From contig JAMDBT010000048.1 of the NCBI GenBank assembly GCA_023487205.1, positions 1 through 41,651 on the forward strand: 41,651 bases of DNA. The letters are read 5' to 3'. Position numbers and translations under genes: made by a program. Every line of letters starts with the position of its first letter. Position 1 is the stretch's first letter. This DNA comes from Thermoplasmatota archaeon (lineage in GTDB: Archaea > Thermoplasmatota > Thermoplasmata > Thermoplasmatales > Thermoplasmataceae). This document shows positions 261 through 40,233 of the stretch, one piece after another. Below the pieces are notes generated by a model, which saw nothing but the letters and a program-made list of their open reading frames with translations, ran no database searches and was not told the DNA's origin.

Positions 261-3020
261 GTGAATCATTCGTCTATACATTTTGAAAGCGCGTTCTTCT
301 CTTTGACCGGTCATCAACCTTTCCCTTGGCAGTCCCGCCTTTTCAATGACTTTGTGTCTGGCGACTTGCCTGCTTCTTGTGATCTCCCTACAGGTCTCGG
401 GAAGACTTCTATAATTCCCATATGGTTGATTGCGCTGGCGAGTCAGGCTCTTAGAGGTGAGGTCACGCTTCCCAGGCGTCTCGTATACATAGTTAACCGG
501 AGAACGGTTGTAGATCAGGCGACAAATCTGGCGGAAGAGATGCGGGAAAAGCTTCTTTCATATACAGCGGGAACCGATTCTTCTGCTATGGAAGCGGTCC
601 GATTGCTAGCGACCACACTGAGAGAATTGTCGGTTTCACAGGAATTGCCCTTGGCGATTAGTACCCTGCGCGGACAATTTGAGGACAACAAGGAGTGGAA
701 AGATGATCCAACAAGGCCTTCCATCATAATAGGAACAGTGGATATGATAGGCAGCAAACTGCTTTTCTCTGGATACGGTGACGGAAGATACTGGCGAGCG
801 CAGCATGCCGGCCTTATTGGACAAGACTCTCTCATTGTTCACGACGAGGCACACTTGACGCCTGCCTTTGCCGAGCTCTTGGATGAAATTGTTCGCTTCC
901 AGGCCAACTCAGAAGAACCGAGACCCGTCAGGGTCATTCAACTGTCCGCAACAAGTCTGCTTCCGGATAATCATGGATTTCGGCTGGAACCCGACGACTA
1001 CAAAGATAAGAGGGTAACAGAACGAATTGATGCGACGAAACGTCTGCATCTCTCTCGCATGGATGCAGAGGACCGAGGAAGAAACGGAGAGGTTGAAAGA
1101 AATTTTGAGAGCGAACTGGTCAGATTGAGCCTCTCTCACAAAGATGAGGGATCAAAAGTGGTGATCTACGTGAGATCGCCCCAAATTGCCAAAAGAGTCT
1201 CGAATCTACTGATAAAGGAACTGGGTGATGAGGAAGGAAACCGGGTTGTCCTACTTACTGGAACCATCCGGGGGTTCGAAAGGGATCGCTTGGCCAAAGG
1301 CAATCGCGTCATTCGCTCTTTCCAAGATCATGGAAGCGGGGTCAGTGAGAGTGTTTTCCTGGTGAGCACTTCCGCAGGAGAGGTGGGTGTTGACCTTGAC
1401 GCGGATCACATGATTGGGGACATCACAACACTGGATTCAATGATTCAGCGTCTCGGGCGGGTGAATCGAATAGGTGGACCGAATCGTGATGCAAGGATCG
1501 ATATTCTGCTTCCTCCGAAATTGGTACGACAGACACGGAACGATAGCTATGAGAACTCCATCAACGCAACCATAGGGGTCTTGGAACGTTGGGAAGAGGA
1601 ATTTCGTAATGAAATAGACGTTAGCCCTAGAAATCTTGGGATTCTACTGGAGAAGCTGAGTAGTCAGCAGCGTGAAGAAGCTTTTTCTCCCATACCAGAA
1701 ATCGTTCCGCTGACTGAGATTATGCTTGACCGGTGGTCATTGACGAGCGCAGGACCGCTAGGAAGCGACGATCTGGTTGCTCCCTACCTGCACGGCAAAG
1801 AAGAGTCAGACTTCCCAGAGACCTATGTCGCCTGGAGAGCCGAAGTAAGCAAGATAGCCAAAGTAAGCGAGATACATGCATTGAGTCCTGATTCACTCAG
1901 TAGGTGGTTTGAGGGTTGCCCGTTGTTGGGGGGGGAGTGTTTGCGAGAGAGAAGTGATTTCGTTAGGAAATCCCTGAAAGAACTCCTTGAGGAGCATAGA
2001 CAAAAGGAACGGGATAAAGACTTCTCGGTGGTCTTGCTGGACGAACATGGGAATGGAAAGCTGGAGAAATTATCGGACATTTCCAAGGATAATTCTGAAA
2101 TTGACCTCGATTACAAAACGGTTGTATTACCAATTGAAGCGGGCGGGCTGAACAGAGAAGGCGGGCTAGACCCTAAGGAAATTGCAAACGTTTCTCATAT
2201 TGACGTACTGGAGGAAATAAGCAATCAAGACGGAAAGGCTAGACTTCAGCGATGGATTGAGACCAACGATCTAGACGGGACACATTATGAGGGGTTGATT
2301 GTAGGTGAAGAAAAGGTCCCTTCCAAGGGTCTCTCCGAGAAGGAAAGAATTGTTTTTCAAGGACCCCCTGAAGATTCGGACTCGGATATCCCCGGTGAAT
2401 CACTGGTCCTGTATGCGAGCCCCTCTCTCCAGGCAGTCGAGAGAGCTGAAACCGCCAAGGTCAGACAGACTCTTGAGGGACACGTGGGTCGCATCCGTTC
2501 GAGCATGCTTTCTATTACAGAAAAACTGCGCCTTGATGATAAGCTTCGGGAAGCGTTGATCCTTGCGTCCGTGTGGCACGATCGTGGGAAGGGCAGGTAT
2601 TTATGGCAGAATTATGCCCTAAACCCGGATCCCTCTCATCCGTTGGCAAAGTCCCTTAGATATAGGAACCCGGACTATCTTGGTGGATATCGACACGAAT
2701 TCGGGTCCCTCCTAGATGCCTCCAATGATCGCCAGGTGCTGCAATGCGAGGAAGTGGACTTGGTACTTCATCTCATTTCGGCACATCACGGGTGGGCCCG
2801 ACCGAGTTTTAGGGATGATGCAGGCGATCCCTCTTACTCCTCCAGTGTGAATGACAAGGCGTTCAATGAGGTATCCCGAAGGTTCGGCTACTTACAAGAG
2901 AAGTTTGGCAGATGGGGCTTGGCCTGGATGGAATCGCTGCTCAGGTGCGCAGACATCGATGCTTCGAAACCAGATGTCAAATTAGGTAATGGTGAACTGG
3001 GCGAAGAGGTGGCGTCTTGA
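261..3020 (+). CDS. cas3: Cas3 helicase-nuclease, type I-G (helicase-HD order)
   Basis: This is the DNA-degrading effector of a type I CRISPR system, recruited after Cascade binds its target. The 919-residue protein has a superfamily 2 helicase first: Walker A PTGLGKT at 43-49, DEAH at 195-198, and a C-terminal helicase motif with QRLGRVNR near 410. The HD nuclease follows at the C-terminus: WHDRGKG with His773-Asp774, a later HH pair in SAHHGW, and a final ADID. The helicase-then-HD order is the reverse of most Cas3 proteins and is known from the GSU0051-like Cas3 of subtype I-G (formerly I-U). The start is a GTG 11 bp or so past the predicted transcript start. Its stop overlaps the TTG start of the next gene (TTGA), so the two are translationally coupled. 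Confidence 0.93.
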   Translation: MNHSSIHFESAFFSLTGHQPFPWQSRLFNDFVSGDLPASCDLPTGLGKTSIIPIWLIALASQALRGEVTLPRRLVYIVNRRTVVDQATNLAEEMREKLLSYTAGTDSSAMEAVRLLATTLRELSVSQELPLAISTLRGQFEDNKEWKDDPTRPSIIIGTVDMIGSKLLFSGYGDGRYWRAQHAGLIGQDSLIVHDEAHLTPAFAELLDEIVRFQANSEEPRPVRVIQLSATSLLPDNHGFRLEPDDYKDKRVTERIDATKRLHLSRMDAEDRGRNGEVERNFESELVRLSLSHKDEGSKVVIYVRSPQIAKRVSNLLIKELGDEEGNRVVLLTGTIRGFERDRLAKGNRVIRSFQDHGSGVSESVFLVSTSAGEVGVDLDADHMIGDITTLDSMIQRLGRVNRIGGPNRDARIDILLPPKLVRQTRNDSYENSINATIGVLERWEEEFRNEIDVSPRNLGILLEKLSSQQREEAFSPIPEIVPLTEIMLDRWSLTSAGPLGSDDLVAPYLHGKEESDFPETYVAWRAEVSKIAKVSEIHALSPDSLSRWFEGCPLLGGECLRERSDFVRKSLKELLEEHRQKERDKDFSVVLLDEHGNGKLEKLSDISKDNSEIDLDYKTVVLPIEAGGLNREGGLDPKEIANVSHIDVLEEISNQDGKARLQRWIETNDLDGTHYEGLIVGEEKVPSKGLSEKERIVFQGPPEDSDSDIPGESLVLYASPSLQAVERAETAKVRQTLEGHVGRIRSSMLSITEKLRLDDKLREALILASVWHDRGKGRYLWQNYALNPDPSHPLAKSLRYRNPDYLGGYRHEFGSLLDASNDRQVLQCEEVDLVLHLISAHHGWARPSFRDDAGDPSYSSSVNDKAFNEVSRRFGYLQEKFGRWGLAWMESLLRCADIDASKPDVKLGNGELGEEVAS

Positions 3021-3886
3021 ATCCACCATCCCCAAGCTTTTCTGTGAAAGTGGATATTACAAACCCGGGACATGTATTCGCATGTTGCGGACTGCTTGAA
3101 TTGTCCAGTAGGATATGGCAGTTCTCTGAGGGATGGTTTGATCTACCCAGGTTTAACTTGTCGATCCCAAACGAAGTGGAGAGGGACAAATTTGGCGTGT
3201 TGATGTCGAAATTATCCAACTGCGAAATCACAGGGCTGAAGGAAGAAGAGCTGGAAGAGAAAGAGCGCCTCAAATCTGAGAAGAAGAGGGACAAGGAATC
3301 TTTTCCCAAGGAGAAAGAAATGAGATTAAAGGAGTTGGGAAAACAGAGCCGATCAGGCGAAATCAAGATGGGCAAACCGTTCAACCTGTCACTTGACTGG
3401 TGGGAATCAGAACAAGCACCAAAGACATGGGCTGGAAAACAGGAGGTTCTCGGGATCGCCAATGCTGCACGAAATGAAATGTGCAAGACGCAAGAGCCCG
3501 ACGAGTTGTTGGACCGTAACTCGATTTTGAGAAAGCCGGATGGAAAGACGAAGATTGAGCCATTCTACTTCGATTCCAGACGCTTCGCTGATCGACGTGA
3601 CGTGGGCTTCTCCCTGGATGCTATAAATTGCGTAACACCCGCGTATCCTGCCGTTGAATTCCTGACCTTGGTCGGTATGCAGCGCTTTCGCCCTGCTCCG
3701 AACCAAAAAGAAAAGAATTCATTCAACTATTCCATTTGGACTTACCCCCTGAGCGTGTCCGTGGCATCGGCTGTCTTCAGTGAAAGTGCTTCTCTTCGTG
3801 GGACTTACAAGTACGGTTTCAGGATGCTTCCCCGGGATGGAGAGAATCGATACAAAGGTTTTTCAAATGCTCGTCCCATGTCATGA
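3017..3886 (+). CDS. Small Csb3-like (GSU0052-position) subunit of type I-G Cascade
   Basis: This 289-residue protein lies between cas3 and cas7, the position held by Csb3/Cas8u2 (GSU0052) in the Geobacter I-G operon. The N-terminus contains NPGHVFACCGLLEL, a pattern I associate with the Csb3 and Csx17 group. Residues about 74-115 form a highly charged Glu/Lys segment, probably a helical or coiled insertion. It starts at a TTG inside the cas3 stop and ends in an ATGA overlap with cas7. The assignment rests mostly on position and the N-terminal pattern. It is far shorter than Csx17 large subunits (roughly 700 residues). Confidence 0.65.
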   Translation: MNPPSPSFSVKVDITNPGHVFACCGLLELSSRIWQFSEGWFDLPRFNLSIPNEVERDKFGVLMSKLSNCEITGLKEEELEEKERLKSEKKRDKESFPKEKEMRLKELGKQSRSGEIKMGKPFNLSLDWWESEQAPKTWAGKQEVLGIANAARNEMCKTQEPDELLDRNSILRKPDGKTKIEPFYFDSRRFADRRDVGFSLDAINCVTPAYPAVEFLTLVGMQRFRPAPNQKEKNSFNYSIWTYPLSVSVASAVFSESASLRGTYKYGFRMLPRDGENRYKGFSNARPMS

Positions 3887-5028
3887 TTCACATGTCAACC
3901 CTGGATCAGTACGATGAATGGCTAAGAGATGGCGGCAGGGAGGCAGCCGTGGTATTGCGGCAGTGGCTGGAACCGGTCGAGGGGAAGGGCAGCGTAATTT
4001 TCCCCCCAACCTATACGCTAGAAGATACAGACAGAGCCCGCAGTTACAAGGATGGCAAGTCTCCTTCAGGAGTGTACCAAAGCAGCCAAGGCGTGTATGG
4101 GTATAACATAGACAGCTTTCGGGATGGAAGTAATGTTTGCCAGATCGATAGCGTGGGATCGCAGGCCAACCACATGGAACCGATCTTCAAGAATGCAGGA
4201 TACATGCATCTTGTTCCCCAATACGTTATTTCTACAGGAGATGAGAAAATTAGCCTGTTAGATGTTGGACACCGTGCAGCCGACGCCATCGTCAGATTTT
4301 CCGACATATCAGATAAACTCAGTAGTGCATTCAAGGCAACGGCAAGAGGTGATGCCCGCGGGTTGGCCATTATCGCTCCCACCTCCTTGGTTTTCGGCTT
4401 CTGGGATTCTCGAGGCACTCAGGTGAAGATGCCGCGAATCGTTCGATCAGTAATTCGTGCTTTTGACGTTGAGTCCCTGCACAGATCTGCCCAGTATAAG
4501 CCTCCGGTTGAATATGAGGAAGCTGGGCTTGTGGACAAGGTGAGCAACAAGAGCGAAAAGGATGCACTGTCTAAACAAGGTCTAGCGCACGCTCCTGCCC
4601 CGATGAGTCACGGTGGCATTCTCGTTCGTGGGGAAATCAGACGGGACGCTTCATTGAACCTGGTCGCAATCCGATCCCTAGGAGCGGGAAATGACGATCC
4701 TCTTCCCCTACGCAGATACATACTAGGGCTGTCGCTTGTGGCACTCACTGCTCCACAGAAGGACTTCCTGAGGGAGGGGTGTCATCTTGTGGTGGACCCA
4801 GAACACAAGCCCCAGTGGAACATCGTGGACCACGACGGAAAGCGTTCGGACGCACAGAACCTGAAGCATGAACAGGTCTTGGAATTTGCCTCTCAGGCTG
4901 CCAAGGAGTTTGGCGTCCAGCAAGGTGAGGTTAGCGTGGGGTTCGACAGTAAGAAGGCAAACAATGCGCTTCACGGTTCCGGCGATGGAAAGAAAAGACC
5001 TAACAAGGTTGAGAAAGCGTCGAACTAG
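3883..5028 (+). CDS. csb1: Cas7 backbone subunit, Csb1/GSU0053 family
   Basis: This 381-residue protein is the type I-G Cas7, which coats the crRNA spacer in multiple copies. Family-like stretches are visible: IDSVGSQANHMEP near 86-98, DVGHRAADA near 127, RSVIRAFDV near 187, and a strongly conserved-looking GGILVRGEIRRDASLN near 243. The start ATG overlaps the stop of the previous gene (ATGA); a second ATG lies three codons later at 3892. The C-terminal 30 residues are Lys/Asn/Gly-rich and probably disordered. It is followed 13 bp later by csb2. Confidence 0.88.
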   Translation: MIHMSTLDQYDEWLRDGGREAAVVLRQWLEPVEGKGSVIFPPTYTLEDTDRARSYKDGKSPSGVYQSSQGVYGYNIDSFRDGSNVCQIDSVGSQANHMEPIFKNAGYMHLVPQYVISTGDEKISLLDVGHRAADAIVRFSDISDKLSSAFKATARGDARGLAIIAPTSLVFGFWDSRGTQVKMPRIVRSVIRAFDVESLHRSAQYKPPVEYEEAGLVDKVSNKSEKDALSKQGLAHAPAPMSHGGILVRGEIRRDASLNLVAIRSLGAGNDDPLPLRRYILGLSLVALTAPQKDFLREGCHLVVDPEHKPQWNIVDHDGKRSDAQNLKHEQVLEFASQAAKEFGVQQGEVSVGFDSKKANNALHGSGDGKKRPNKVEKASN

Positions 5029-5041
5029 GTTCCGTGACTAG

Positions 5042-6517
5042 ATGGATACCCTCGTTCTATCCGTAACATTCTTGGACAGATTGTTCCACGGCAGGTCGAG
5101 CAACAATGAACCGGAATGGCCTCCATCACCCATGCGACTCTTCCAGGCAATGCTTGCGGGAGCACATATGGGGATACGAGAGACTCAATGGTCTGGAGCA
5201 AAGGAGAATGCGTTCAAATGGCTTGAATCGATCGAGGATCTCCCTGTAATAATAGCACCTAGAGCCGAACTCTCATCCGGATACGTCGCCTATGTGCCGG
5301 ACAATGTTGGTGACAAGAAGAGAGAAAGGCAAAATCGGTTATTCCCGAAAGAATACAGACCCTACAGGCTAATTGACGGAGACACTGTATACTATGCTTG
5401 GATAATTGATTCGTCGGAGAGGGAAAGCAGGGAGGAACGCTTAAGGATCCTGTGTGACGAGATGCGTCACGTTGTCAGCCTAGGATGGGGCATAGACCAG
5501 GTAATAGGCAACGGAAAGATTCTTTCCGAATCTGACGTAACCGGGCTTCCCGGCAATCGATGGAAATCCGTGAATGCAATAGGCCCCGGAGAGAGTCTGT
5601 TGCGTGTCCCCACGGAAGGGTCATTAGTGGATTTGCAGTCCGTGGTTTACAAGGGGTTTGTTGAAAGAGTAGACGGAAATTCTTTTAGGCAACCTCCGAA
5701 ACCTAGTAAGTACCGAGAAGTATGGTACTCTAGAGAGTGGTACAGGTCTCCCAGGGAGTATTGTGTCTTTGAGATTTTGGATGGAGTGGCGTTTGCCCAG
5801 AAGAACCTGACCAAGGTTGCGACGATGTTTCGTTCGCTGACAATCAGGGAAGCCGAGGGGGACGACCACAAATTCCCTGGAGGAGTTGAGAAGTACGTCG
5901 CCGGGCACGCAGACCATGTGGACACCAACATTCCTCGTTTTTCGTACATACCGCTGCCGACCATTGGGCACCAACACGCAGATGGAATGATACGGAGGCT
6001 CCTGATCGTTGAGCCTTATGGGGGAGGCGGGACGCAGGCCCGCTGGTCTTATAACAAGTTGCACGGTGCCCCACTCCGGGATGAAGATGGTAACATCTTC
6101 GGAGTTCTGAATCGATCTTTGGGATCCGAAACGGAGAGGATGGTACAAAGATATACAAGAGAATCTCTGAAGTGGAGGACAGTCACTCCAGTCATTCTCC
6201 CTGGATTCGATGACGGGAAGCAGAAAAAGGCAGAGAAGCTTGTCCTGACTGCTATGAAACAGGCGGGGGTTGCTCCTGAGACAGTATGTGAATTCTATTT
6301 AAGAAAATCACCATTCTGGAATGGGTCGCTTCATCCTAAACAGTACTTCTTGCCTGAGTACTTGAGAAAGCTTCCTGGCTGGCATGTGGAGATCGTTTTT
6401 CGCGAACCGGTCTCTGGACCGCTCTCTCTGGGAGCAGGACGCCACTTAGGAATGGGTTTGTTTGCAAGAGTGATCAGCGGGCATAAAGGATCAGAAGACT
6501 CTTACATGTCCATTTGA
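5042..6517 (+). CDS. csb2: Csb2 (GSU0054 family), Cas5-Cas6 fusion of type I-G
   Basis: This 491-residue protein is the signature protein of subtype I-G. It combines the Cas5 role (binding the crRNA 5' handle) with the Cas6 role (cutting pre-crRNA). The N-terminus has the family pattern FLDRLFHGRS followed by EWPPSPMRLFQAMLAG, where the pathway-specific RAMP fold begins. The C-terminus has the glycine-rich loop GPLSLGAGRHLGMGLF (about 460-477), typical of RAMP and Cas6 domains. Its RNA substrate is presumably the repeat hairpin of the array at 8906-9670. A 79-bp gap without a gene separates it from cas4-cas1. Confidence 0.9.
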   Translation: MDTLVLSVTFLDRLFHGRSSNNEPEWPPSPMRLFQAMLAGAHMGIRETQWSGAKENAFKWLESIEDLPVIIAPRAELSSGYVAYVPDNVGDKKRERQNRLFPKEYRPYRLIDGDTVYYAWIIDSSERESREERLRILCDEMRHVVSLGWGIDQVIGNGKILSESDVTGLPGNRWKSVNAIGPGESLLRVPTEGSLVDLQSVVYKGFVERVDGNSFRQPPKPSKYREVWYSREWYRSPREYCVFEILDGVAFAQKNLTKVATMFRSLTIREAEGDDHKFPGGVEKYVAGHADHVDTNIPRFSYIPLPTIGHQHADGMIRRLLIVEPYGGGGTQARWSYNKLHGAPLRDEDGNIFGVLNRSLGSETERMVQRYTRESLKWRTVTPVILPGFDDGKQKKAEKLVLTAMKQAGVAPETVCEFYLRKSPFWNGSLHPKQYFLPEYLRKLPGWHVEIVFREPVSGPLSLGAGRHLGMGLFARVISGHKGSEDSYMSI

Positions 6518-6596
6518 CCTCGAATGAAGAGAATAAGATGTCAAAAAGAGAAGGGTACATTTCAGTGACGCATTTGAGTAACCCTGCGGTGATTCA

Positions 6597-8282
6597 ATGA
6601 TCGGAGACGAGGTTCCTTCGTTGCTTCCGGCAAGAATGCTGAATGAATTTGTGTACTGTCCGAGGCTCTTCTATCTCGAATGGGTTCAGGGGGACTTCAA
6701 GGATTCGGCAGATGTCATAGAAGGTATGGCAAAACACAAACATGTGAACGTTGAAGGGGGGAAGCTCCCCGCTCCTGAAGAGTTAGCCACGGATGGAGAC
6801 ATCCAATTTAAGACTAGATCTTTAACCCTGGCCTGTGAAAAGTATGGGATCATTGCGCGGATGGACCTTGTCGAAGTGGCAGGAGGAAAGGTTTCCCCGG
6901 TTGAATACAAGAAGGGAAAGGAACCAAACCAAGAGGAGAAAGTCTGGCCCTCCGATCTGGTACAGATCAGTGCCCAGATACTGATCTTGAGGGAGAACGG
7001 TTACAAGTGCGAGACGGGATTCCTCTATTATTCAGAATCCAAGAAGAGAGTCAAGGTCGAGATCAGCGAAGAAATAGTCAGGTGGACCCAAGAGGAAATC
7101 GAGAAAGCAAGGGAGTTATCCAATTCCCGGACGATTCCACCACCACTGGCGGACAGTCCAAGGTGCGTGAGATGCTCTCTCGCATCAATTTGCCTTCCGG
7201 ATGAGGTCATTTCGCTCTCAGGGTTGTCGCCAGGAAATGTGGAAGGAGGAGAGGTTCGCAGGCTGTATCCTGCAAGAGACGACTCCCTGCCGGTCTATGT
7301 GCAGGAGCAGGGGGCATCTGTCTCCAAGAGAAATGAGGAGCTCATAATTAGATTCGAGGGAGAGATCAGATCGACGGTAAGATTAATTGAGGTATCCCAA
7401 TTGTCGCTGTTCGGGAATGTTCAGGTGTCCACCCAAATGATAAATGAACTCTGCAGACGGAACATTCCGATCTGCTATTTCACAACCGGAGGCTGGTTCA
7501 ACGGTCTCACTCATGGAATGGCTCACAAGAATGTTGAATTGAGAATCAGGCAATATTCTGCGGCAGGCGACAAGGAAATGTCACTGTCACTTGCGAAAAA
7601 GTTCGTGGAGGGAAAGATAAAGAACTCCAGAACTTTATTGCGTAGGAACAGCGATAATTCCAGTCGCGAAGCACTCGATTTACTGCAGCACCTGACTGTG
7701 GATGTTTCGAAATCCCGGACGAGCGAGGAACTATTGGGCATTGAAGGATTGGCAGGACGTACCTATTTTCAGCATTTTGGAGACATGATTAAGGAAAATA
7801 CCCCGGGTTTCCATTTCGATTTTGAAGGCAGAAATAGGAGACCACCCAGAGACGCGATTAATGCTCTCCTTTCCTACGTATACGCATTGCTGACCAAGGA
7901 GTTCACCGTCACTACCTTGGCTGTGGGCCTTGATCCCTTTCTCGGGTTTTACCACAAACCCAGATACGGTAGACCATCTCTTGCGTTGGATCTTATGGAG
8001 GAGTTCAGGCCCATTGTGGCTGATTCCGTTGTGATTTCCCTTGTAAACAATCGTGAAGTCGCGATGAAAGATTTTATTCAAAGAGGACCCGCAACGAGCC
8101 TCACCTCGGAAGCAAAGAAGAAAGTAATCGGTGCCTATGAAAGGCGTATGGACTCGTTGATCTCACACCCTATGTTCGGCTATTCGGTCAGTTACCGCAG
8201 GATTCTTGAGGTTCAGGCGAGGCTGCTCTCCAGATACCTGTCAAAAGAATTGCGAGAGTACCCCATATTTTCCACGAGGTGA
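6597..8282 (+). CDS. cas4-cas1: Cas4-Cas1 fusion, spacer integration
   Basis: This 561-residue fusion joins a Cas4 nuclease to the Cas1 integrase, as in GSU0057. The Cas4 part (about 1-205) has an N-terminal Cys in FVYCPRLFYLEW, the nuclease motif PVEYKKGK near 101-108, and three clustered Cys in CVRCSLASIC near 192-201, which together would hold an iron-sulfur cluster. The Cas1 part (about 220-561) has RRPPRDAINALLSY and the catalytic-region FYHKPRYGRPSLALDLMEEFRP. Cas4 in such fusions helps select the PAM and orient the prespacer before Cas1-Cas2 integrates it. It is followed three bases later by cas2. Confidence 0.94.
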   Translation: MIGDEVPSLLPARMLNEFVYCPRLFYLEWVQGDFKDSADVIEGMAKHKHVNVEGGKLPAPEELATDGDIQFKTRSLTLACEKYGIIARMDLVEVAGGKVSPVEYKKGKEPNQEEKVWPSDLVQISAQILILRENGYKCETGFLYYSESKKRVKVEISEEIVRWTQEEIEKARELSNSRTIPPPLADSPRCVRCSLASICLPDEVISLSGLSPGNVEGGEVRRLYPARDDSLPVYVQEQGASVSKRNEELIIRFEGEIRSTVRLIEVSQLSLFGNVQVSTQMINELCRRNIPICYFTTGGWFNGLTHGMAHKNVELRIRQYSAAGDKEMSLSLAKKFVEGKIKNSRTLLRRNSDNSSREALDLLQHLTVDVSKSRTSEELLGIEGLAGRTYFQHFGDMIKENTPGFHFDFEGRNRRPPRDAINALLSYVYALLTKEFTVTTLAVGLDPFLGFYHKPRYGRPSLALDLMEEFRPIVADSVVISLVNNREVAMKDFIQRGPATSLTSEAKKKVIGAYERRMDSLISHPMFGYSVSYRRILEVQARLLSRYLSKELREYPIFSTR

Positions 8283-8905: not shown

Positions 8906-9670
8906 GTTTCCATGACTGAAAAGTCATGGCCACATTGAAGCGAAACAGAAGGTAATAGTACCACATCGATCTACTGAGTTTCCATGACTGAAAAGTCATG
9001 GCCACATTGAAGCGTTACGTTCACGTTTCCGGCCGGGTAGATCGAGGTGTTGTTTCCATGACTGAAAAGTCATGGCCACATTGAAGCCTGATTTGCCGTA
9101 ATGATAGAAGACCGAGACATTCTTGTTTCCATGACTGAAAAGTCATGGCCACATTGAAGCTTCCAGATCGCAGTTTCCTTTTCGTCCAGTTCCCAGCGTT
9201 TCCATGACTGAAAAGTCATGGCCACATTGAAGCGCATAGAGGTCGCCAACGTCCCGATAGGATTCGACGGTTTCCATGACTGAAAAGTCATGGCCACATT
9301 GAAGCTACCAGTAGTGGAGACTTGCATTGTAGGTATCGGAACGTTTCCATGACTGAAAAGTCATGGCCACATTGAAGCGAATAATAGAGCAGCTTCACCG
9401 GATCGTCGCTGTAAAAGGTTTCCATGACTGAAAAGTCATGGCCACATTGAAGCGGGATATCATAAGTGTAAACGTCGTAAGTCTGGTTGGTTTCCATGAC
9501 TGAAAAGTCATGGCCACATTGAAGCAACATTATCACAAGCTGGGAGTGCGTGACGATGTTCTGTTTCCATGACTGAAAAGTCATGGCCACATTGAAGCTT
9601 ATTATTAATTGCATATCCATATGGAATGCATGCAGTTTCCATGACTGAAAAGTCATGGCCACATTGAAGC
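8906..9670 (+). CRISPR. CRISPR array, 11 repeats of 36 bp and 10 spacers
   Basis: Repeats begin at 8906, 8978, 9052, 9125, 9198, 9270, 9343, 9418, 9490, 9563 and 9635. All eleven are identical 36-mers beginning GTTTCC and ending CACATTGAAGC. Spacers are 36-39 bp. Inside the repeat is a perfect 8-bp palindromic stem, CCATGACT and AGTCATGG, closed by GAAA; the tail after the stem is CCACATTGAAGC. The likely handle after Csb2 processing is the last 8 bases, ATTGAAGC. Neither end repeat is degenerate, so orientation rests on the handle and on the side where cas2 lies. Confidence 0.98.
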
Positions 9671-9745
9671 ACCCCAACGGGATTGCGGAGGCTGCTCTCT
9701 CGTAGGAACTGTCTGCTATCTTACCAATCATCGATGCTTGATTTT

Positions 9746-38618: not shown

Positions 38619-38873
38619 TTACTTCTTGCTGCCGGACGAACCAGTCTTCTTCGTGGTACCGCTCTTGCTCTTACCTGCGCTCCCGGTTCCAGATTTGCTC
38701 CCACCCTTCCCGTCAGACTTTGGCTTCTTAGGCGCAGAAGGTGTCGTGGGCGCCTGCTCCGCAGGCTTTGCTGGGGCTTCCTTGGCGGGGGGCGAGACCG
38801 GTGCCTTTGCCTTGGGTTCAGGGGACGATTTCTTCTTCTTCCAGAATTGCCACATAAGGAGATCAAGCATCAA
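38619..38873 (-). CDS. Small Lys/Pro/Ala-rich basic protein, low complexity
   Basis: This 84-residue open frame begins MMLDLLMWQFWKKKKSSPEP. An alternative start is the ATG at 38855, giving MWQFWKKKK. The middle is Pro/Ala/Lys-rich (PAKEAPAKPAEQAP) and the end is Ser/Gly/Thr/Lys-rich (KSGTTKKTGSSGSKK). It resembles a histone H1-type tail in composition and is likely disordered and able to bind nucleic acid; no fold is visible. It is divergent from the NYN-OST-HTH gene. Composition bias makes coding status less certain. Confidence 0.5.
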   Translation of the reverse strand: MMLDLLMWQFWKKKKSSPEPKAKAPVSPPAKEAPAKPAEQAPTTPSAPKKPKSDGKGGSKSGTGSAGKSKSGTTKKTGSSGSKK

Positions 38874-38980
38874 GAGCGTAAAATCCTATCGATCCTACTC
38901 AACGCCAGTGCTTTCCAAGAGGAACCATGCATGAGGGAAGGCGCAGCAGACAAGAAAGGCACCGGGTGGGGGGAAAAGCC

Positions 38981-38992
38981 ATATATTTATAG
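38981..38992 (+). promoter_or_regulatory. Strong TATA-like box upstream of the candidate RNA
   Basis: ATATATTTATAG predicts a plus-strand transcript start near 39010-39015. The next clear gene start is the ATG at 39247, so the transcript would have a leader of about 235 nt or be a separate RNA. Confidence 0.5.
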
Positions 38993-39009
38993 AACACCCC
39001 GGCATGAAT

Positions 39010-39180
39010 AGTAGAAAGAAGAATAGACCGTCCATTTGGAAATATGGGCAGAAAACATGCTGCATATCTGCAAACTGGAGGCTAACAGAGATAAAGCAGG
39101 GACATTGAAACGGGAGGGCTAAAGCAACCGGGCAGCATCGAAAGATGTTGCAGTGAAGAACCCCTCCCGCCGGTTTTCAG
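39010..39180 (+). ncRNA. Candidate structured RNA or long structured 5' leader
   Basis: CGGGAGGG (39111-39118) pairs perfectly with CCCTCCCG (39162-39169). Nested inside, GCAGCATC (39132-39139) pairs with GATGTTGC (39144-39151), with one G-U pair, across a GAAA tetraloop (39140-39143). The internal loops are A-rich (CTAAAGCAACC and AGTGAAGAA). TTTT at 39173-39176 follows the outer stem. No known RNA family is recognised: RNase P and SRP signature sequences were looked for and not seen. The bounds are approximate. Confidence 0.4.
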
Positions 39181-39246
39181 TCGCGGCAAGTATCAAGAAT
39201 AGCCTTTGGGGAGACAAATTCGCGGTATATTTTTCGTGGAGACGAC

Positions 39247-40233
39247 ATGTTCGAAAAATTCAAGCGAAAGAAGACACAGGATCAGGAACCAGTCATTCCC
39301 GAGGCACAGGCTGTAAAACGCGTTCCCGCCTCTGTGACTCCGAAGGTGAGGGTTCCGGTAAGCGAATCGAAAACGGCGGCGGCGATAATTCTTGTCGATG
39401 CAAGTAACGTGGCTCATGGCAACAGCGCAGGGAAACATGAACCAAGACTGGAGAACGTGCTTGTCACGCTTTCTAGTCTGGTGAACAGGGGAGCAAAAGT
39501 AATTACGATAGCGGATGCCACCCTGAGACACAAGATCGATCAGAAGGACGCGCTTGAGAAGATGCTCGACGAGAGCGATATCATGCAGGTTCCCGCAGCT
39601 TCATCAGCGGACGATTATATCTGGGAAATTGCACAGTTTCACCAGAAGAGGGGGAGCAGGGTCTTCATTGTCACCAACGACAGGTTTCCCATAACCAAGG
39701 CAACTACCCCTGAAACGAAGAGCATCAAAAGGATCACGTTCATGCTGATCGAAAAGGACGTATTTTTCCAGCCCAGCCTCGAAGATGCACTGAAAGATAC
39801 GCAGATCGCGCCGCCTGCCAAACCTCCTGCGGAATCCACCCAGAAAGCGCCCGAGGTGAACAAACAGGAAAGGCCCAGAACGGAAACAGCCAAGCCCCCC
39901 AACGCGGGTGAAAGAAAAACACACAGGGAAGAGAGGAAGAAACCAGAACTTACGCCCGACCTGCTTAAGGTCATCGTGGACTACCTGGGAAGCAGGAGGG
40001 TGCCAGTTAAACCCGGAGATCGCGTAGACTTTGCGTCCATCTCCAATTTTCTTCATAAGAAATATGGCGGGAATTTCTGCGCTGTTTTGGGGTTTCGCAG
40101 ACCAAAGGATCTTGCCACGCTGCTTGAAGCCAACGGGTACGTGCTCACCAGCCACAGTGGTACCACGCTGTACATTGAACCCACCCCTAAGCTGATGGAA
40201 AAGCCGGCAAAGGAAGGTTCTGTGATTAATTGA
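39247..40233 (+). CDS. NYN/PIN-like RNase domain protein with OST-HTH (LOTUS) domain
   Basis: This 328-residue protein starts MFEKFKRKK. A NYN (Zc3h12a-like) domain spans about 45-180. IILVDASNVAHGN has Asp51, ADAT has Asp90, SADDYIWEIA has Asp122/Asp123 and VTNDRF has Asp145, so the acidic set for metal-dependent RNA cleavage is present. Residues 185-235 are a Pro/Lys/Glu linker. Residues about 236-312 resemble an OST-HTH/LOTUS RNA-binding domain (DFASISNFLHKKYGGNF, VLGFRRPKDLATLLEANGYV). The pairing suggests an RNase guided by an RNA-binding module. A possible TATA (TATATTTT, 39225-39232) is only about 19 bp from the ATG. Confidence 0.78.
   Translation: MFEKFKRKKTQDQEPVIPEAQAVKRVPASVTPKVRVPVSESKTAAAIILVDASNVAHGNSAGKHEPRLENVLVTLSSLVNRGAKVITIADATLRHKIDQKDALEKMLDESDIMQVPAASSADDYIWEIAQFHQKRGSRVFIVTNDRFPITKATTPETKSIKRITFMLIEKDVFFQPSLEDALKDTQIAPPAKPPAESTQKAPEVNKQERPRTETAKPPNAGERKTHREERKKPELTPDLLKVIVDYLGSRRVPVKPGDRVDFASISNFLHKKYGGNFCAVLGFRRPKDLATLLEANGYVLTSHSGTTLYIEPTPKLMEKPAKEGSVIN

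Follow-up and report, generated by a model that had tools for sequence, protein, structure and literature searches.

In an acid-loving archaeon of the Thermoplasmatales, a group mostly without mRNA leaders, the gene for a Zc3h12a/Regnase-like NYN nuclease is preceded by a predicted 5' leader of about 235 nt, which is very likely real and structured and which probably serves as a control element. Drawing on analogy with known autoregulated genes, we favor, at about even confidence, the reading that this stretch is the folded 5' untranslated leader of the nuclease mRNA and that the nuclease recognizes it for its own negative feedback. We regard it as a probable undescribed cis-regulatory leader whose kind is known and whose setting is unusual. 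The evidence presented here was obtained in silico and concerns the position of the leader, its fold, its closure in relatives, the selection acting on it and its exclusive link to one gene.

Promoter, predicted transcript and neighboring genes

The window, the whole 41,651-nt stretch of DNA that we analyzed, belongs to a genome referred to here as G000. The nuclease gene (39247-40233, + strand; 328 aa with a C-terminal winged-helix domain, by PF11977 profile and structure model) is preceded on the same strand by a TATA box (CATATATTTATAG at 38980-38992, or ATATATTTATAG at 38981-38992), where the sequence TTTATAG starts at 38986. Three genes of the window that look leaderless have a TATA box starting 27-33 nt upstream of their ATG; transcription of the nuclease gene is therefore expected to start near 39012, a position placed from the TATA box (TATA start plus 26), such that the predicted leader spans 39012-39246 (+). 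A Shine-Dalgarno-like GGAG lies 5 nt before the ATG, at 39238-39241 (+). The initial annotation had described a strong TATA box followed by about 235 nt without a gene, in a genome with leaderless mRNAs, and this description held up: the box is present, 39012-39246 contains no gene family or credible ORF, no tRNA was found in the stretch, and the leaderless background is backed by the TATA spacing of the three window genes and by the Thermoplasma literature (PMC7531240). It had also placed the stretch between two RNA-related genes, which we could not confirm, as the divergent upstream ORF (38619-38873, - strand) has no Pfam or PADLOC match. This ORF encodes 84 aa that start with MMLDLLMWQFWKKKK and continue into a Lys/Pro/Ala/Ser-rich tail, and its start loosely resembles the N-terminus of the nuclease (MFEKFKRKK plus a low-complexity stretch).

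The same TATA box could instead drive a leaderless ORF of 34 aa (39004-39108, +), whose ATG follows soon after the box and opens 34 codons. We consider this very improbable, since only 18 nt separate that ATG from the TATA start, whereas the spacing is 27-33 nt in the leaderless-looking genes of the window, and since neither G084 nor G085, two related genomes considered below, has an ATG at the equivalent place. The start of this ORF is probably upstream of the transcription start. Rfam covariance models searched against the window gave no match at the gathering score, with two matches at chance level (E 2.1 and 4.8), and RNase P RNA, considered as a candidate, lies elsewhere in the genome.

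Fold, conservation and distribution of the leader

Folded as a whole (39012-39246, 235 nt), the leader has a minimum free energy (MFE) of -74.8 kcal/mol and a z of -4.2, with none of 200 shuffles as low, and other choices of boundaries or shuffles gave z of -4.0 and -4.7. Among 160 sampled 235-nt control windows on both strands, z ≤ -3.5 was seen, besides the leader, only in the CRISPR array. This array (8906-9684) has 11 repeats (GTTTCCATGACTGAAAAGTCATGGCCACATTGAAGC) at a period of about 73 and is adjoined by cas3g, cas8g, cas7g, cas5/6g and a cas4-cas1 fusion (261-8282), which together represent a type I-G (I-U) system.

The predicted fold is closed by a stem, P1, in which 12 of the 13 positions of the 5' arm (GAAGAATAGACCG, 39018-39030, +) pair with the 3' arm (CGGTATATTTTTC, 39223-39235, +), and which stops 2 nt short of the GGAG. 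Inside it are a hairpin, P2 (ATATGGGCAG / CTGCATAT, 39042-39051 / 39060-39067, +), present in the centroid and local folds and absent from the MFE structure, and a long-range stem, P3 (5' arm CTGGAGGCTA, 39075-39084; 3' arm TAGCCTTTGG, 39200-39209; +), present in both MFE and centroid. The two stems reported by the initial annotation are indeed there, namely a perfect outer stem of 8 bp (CGGGAGGG at 39111-39118 with CCCTCCCG at 39162-39169, +) and a nested hairpin of 8 bp, one of them G-U, with a GAAA loop at 39140-39143 (GCAGCATC / GATGTTGC, 39132-39139 / 39144-39151, +). That report missed P1 and P3, however, and in the folding model its two stems make up just the interior of a larger structure; this nested part alone has a z of -2.6, and 1 of 200 shuffles matched its energy. 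No k-turn was noticed by eye around the GAAA hairpin.

Full-length orthologues of the nuclease came from six genomes of one Thermoplasmatales family (G000, G016, G084, G085, G001 and G002), three in the genus of the window and three in one other genus, and all six have a TATA box and a long leader before the gene, with lengths by the same TATA rule of 245 nt in G016, 182 nt in both G084 and G085, 232 nt in G001 and 277 nt in G002. A TTTATAG box is common to the relatives, with ACAAATGTTTATAG in three, and BLAST of the promoters of G084 and G016 gave 86% over 35 nt. A nearer TATA in G016 (L002:1299), which makes for a shorter and weaker leader, was rejected because the TATA held in common with G084 and G085 lies further upstream. 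Since the candidate TATA of the distant Thermoplasmata homologues L028 and L029 lies no more than about 90 nt upstream of the ATG, the long leader seems, from sequence, to be limited to two genera. A strong GAGGAGG was observed at L028 and L029.

As a measure of closure, we took the expected number of pairs that the first 30 nt form with the last 5-35 nt ahead of the start codon. With 200 shuffles for each leader, this number was reached by 9 shuffles in G000, 1 in G016, 8 in G084, 8 in G085, 1 in G001 and 81 in G002. For energy, the corresponding counts were 0, 0, 4, 3, 28 and 131, with fold z of -3.5 in G016 and of -2.3 and -2.6 in G084 and G085. End-to-end closure above most shuffles was seen in five of the six genomes, or four lineages (the window and three others), and pertains to architecture, not to individual inner stems. 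The G001 leader is closed, yet its energy is ordinary, and that of G002 has neither low energy nor closure. In the relatives, closure rests mostly on different sequences, and four of the five have a pyrimidine-rich 3' P1 arm whose end lies 9-13 nt upstream of the ATG. Against G084, the 5' P1 arm matches at 9 of 13 positions at equal distance from the TATA box (G084 arm GGAGGATAAACGG; p 0.009) and the 3' arm at 9 of 12 at equal distance from the ATG (p 0.012), both comparisons having been chosen after inspection. Analogues of P2 were seen in G084/G085 and G016, which also have long-range stems equivalent to P3 in position and of other sequence. Five of the six orthologues have GGAG or GAGG near the ATG, and P1 ends 0-2 nt before this Shine-Dalgarno-like motif in G000 and G084/G085.

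These similarities do not extend to the stems on which the initial annotation had staked its candidate by naming their conservation in relatives as decisive: neither nested stem was found in the relatives, and they show no compensatory changes because the lineages have wholly different inner domains. Alignment of leaders across the two genera revealed similarity at chance level, no better than shuffles, and as they are not alignable beyond chance, pair-by-pair covariation is not scorable. A motif within P2, ACATG-(0-3)-YTGC-(0-2)-ATATCTGC at 39055-39071, is common to the leaders of G000, G084 and G085 (L013, L014), and scanning 77 genomes for it returned these three NYN leaders and one match in a coding region; having been chosen after the sequences were seen, this sharing is only suggestive.

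Between the closely related species G084 and G085, the leader differs at 11 of 182 positions (94% identity), compared with 36 of 111 four-fold coding sites (68% identity; p 5e-9) and 35 of 171 positions in the flank upstream of the TATA box (80% identity; p 6e-5). Two of the 11 differences swap GGAG in G084 for GAGG in G085, both of which are complementary to CCUCC. By this comparison, the leader appears to be under selection. A bias of these changes toward unpaired sites was discarded, being strong on the alifold consensus and gone on single-sequence folds (p 0.34 and 0.75). Conservation of this kind could also come from DNA elements if the stretch had no RNA function and were a long intergenic region with conserved sites for regulators and a chance fold, as the foldless G002 and the chance-level similarity across genera would allow. 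Because folding and closure rise above shuffles in several lineages and above the control windows, we give this explanation little likelihood. A structure that merely protects the 5' end or keeps the start site open, with no switch, would need only P1 closure and a free Shine-Dalgarno-like site, and would fit inner sequences that drift between genera. It would be less expected to show the 94% identity of G084 and G085, which includes the inner part and suggests more than a generic stem, and we think it improbable.

Searches of 61-77 related genomes with leader DNA from the window, G084 and G016 found no further copy; the only hits were the promoter common to relatives and short matches attributable to chance. 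One 22-nt identity, in G004, was dismissed as chance, as it lies antisense inside an apparent aminopeptidase gene. The neighbors of the nuclease gene vary between lineages, and the leader therefore stays with the nuclease gene, to which, in the genomes searched, it is exclusively tied. The earlier proposal of a structured RNA linked to the NYN gene is thus upheld: a leader precedes the orthologous gene in all six genomes, is closed in five of them and is conserved between the closely related G084 and G085. That proposal left three roles for the RNA, as cofactor, substrate or autoregulatory leader, of which the last is the likeliest, while a separate cofactor or substrate RNA found no specific support because a Shine-Dalgarno-like motif follows P1 and there are no copies elsewhere.

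One form of such a separate RNA would be a discrete transcript of about 225 nt, set free either by cleavage or by transcription ending at the U-rich arm of P1 (ATTTTTC), and serving the nuclease as a partner, guide or substrate. U tracts can stop archaeal RNA polymerase, and both the U-rich 3' arm of P1 and the end-to-end closure would suit this possibility. The U run, however, counts only four or three in the relatives, which is weak for a terminator, the Shine-Dalgarno-like motif after P1 is what a leader predicts, and no copy is uncoupled from the gene, so that we hold a discrete RNA to be unlikely.

The nuclease and its proposed action on the leader

Profile, fold and acidic residues identify the product as a Zc3h12a-like NYN nuclease: it matches PF11977 at 49.4 bits (cut-off 23; E 5e-13), its model retrieves ZC3H12C/Regnase PIN domains in Foldseek (E ~1e-5), and D51, D122, D123 and D145 are invariant. 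In nuclease fold and acidic residues it is like Regnase-1/ZC3H12, from which it differs in having a winged helix, in lacking a CCCH zinc finger and in being archaeal. The C-terminal domain is modeled as a winged helix (wHTH, pLDDT 83) with the order H-H-h-H-E-E, to be compared with the LOTUS fold, in which an additional short helix separates helices 2 and 3. In a fold search with this domain, many winged helices matched, none of them with an E below 0.001, and the LOTUS domains of Tejas and Marf1 came only at ranks 24 and 40; against Pfam, OST-HTH profile included, the C-terminal part had no match even at E 10, and a profile search with the complete protein retrieved nothing from the sequences of solved structures. 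The distant relative L028 has a sub-threshold match to the OST-HTH-associated domain (OHA). Both L028 and L029, at about 450 aa, carry a C-terminal extension that weakly matches the OHA and DUF7625 domains. Of the initial description as an NYN nuclease with OST-HTH, the nuclease and a predicted winged helix therefore stand, whereas OST-HTH was established by neither profile nor fold search, and an RNA-binding OST-HTH/LOTUS identity of the winged helix is, from the model, plausible, not established. The layout of an N-terminal NYN/PIN-like nuclease and a C-terminal winged helix is shared with MARF1, DNE1 and bacterial DUF88-OST-HTH proteins, but here the nuclease domain matches Zc3h12a (PF11977) and the OST-HTH profile is unmatched. 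OST-HTH has been described as very rare in archaea (PMC2848206), and the LOTUS domains of MARF1 bind G-rich RNA according to work cited in PMC10226599.

For the favored feedback, we infer that 39012-39246 is transcribed as the leader of the nuclease mRNA and not as a separate gene. It would form one closed domain, in which P1 joins the 5' end to the nucleotides before GGAG and ATG with P2 and P3 inside, and the nuclease would recognize this folded domain of its own mRNA through the winged-helix domain. Once bound, it would block ribosome binding or cut the leader, and its level would be held by negative feedback. This is the most economical reading because it takes in a closed stem next to where ribosomes would bind, a link to a single gene, inner sequences that drift while the shape is kept, and the fact that the gene encodes an RNase. 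For the specific part that the nuclease is the regulator of the leader, we see the case as evenly balanced.

The leader might instead respond to pH or temperature, to a metabolite, or to an RNA-binding protein other than the nuclease, for instance L7Ae, with the opening or closing of P1 controlling translation. In keeping with this, only 0-2 nt lie between the end of P1 and the Shine-Dalgarno-like motif in G000 and G084/G085, and control of L7Ae by a k-turn in a 5' UTR is known in archaea (PMC5539422). We find such a sensor rather unlikely, though it deserves weight, as the leader matches no riboswitch or other family in Rfam, its inner domain is unconserved in sequence between genera, unlike typical aptamers, and it occurs only at the nuclease gene (61-77 genomes). 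Because inner sequences differ while closure stays, recognition of shape by a protein is favored over a conserved ligand pocket. The more ambitious idea of an undescribed RNA-protein system gained no specific support, and it is quite doubtful that the nuclease and its leader are an RNA-protein pair dedicated to each other, with the cleaved or released leader also serving as a working part, for example as guide or decoy.

The autoregulatory reading has counterparts in systems already described. In Escherichia coli, rnc (RNase III) is autoregulated through a structure in its 5' UTR, rncO (PMC5371410), and 5' UTR autoregulation of rne (RNase E) is covered by references in PMC9841416; as here, a long structured leader precedes an RNase gene, and in those cases the enzyme acts on its own leader, whereas here the nuclease belongs to an unrelated family and another domain of life and its action on the leader is only proposed. 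Archaeal L7Ae is autoregulated via a k-turn in its own 5' UTR (PMC5539422, PMC6298567), which is alike in that an archaeal gene has a control element, here a predicted one, in its own leader, and different in that we see a large closed domain of ~180-245 nt, a nuclease gene and, by eye, no k-turn.

If true, autoregulation of the nuclease through this leader would extend RNase autoregulation to archaea. To our knowledge, few structured cis-regulatory leaders have been described in archaea, and fewest in mostly leaderless lineages. The Regnase-type nuclease family is best known from animal immunity, and for an archaeal relative of these nucleases the leader would, on the same proviso, be a natural substrate.
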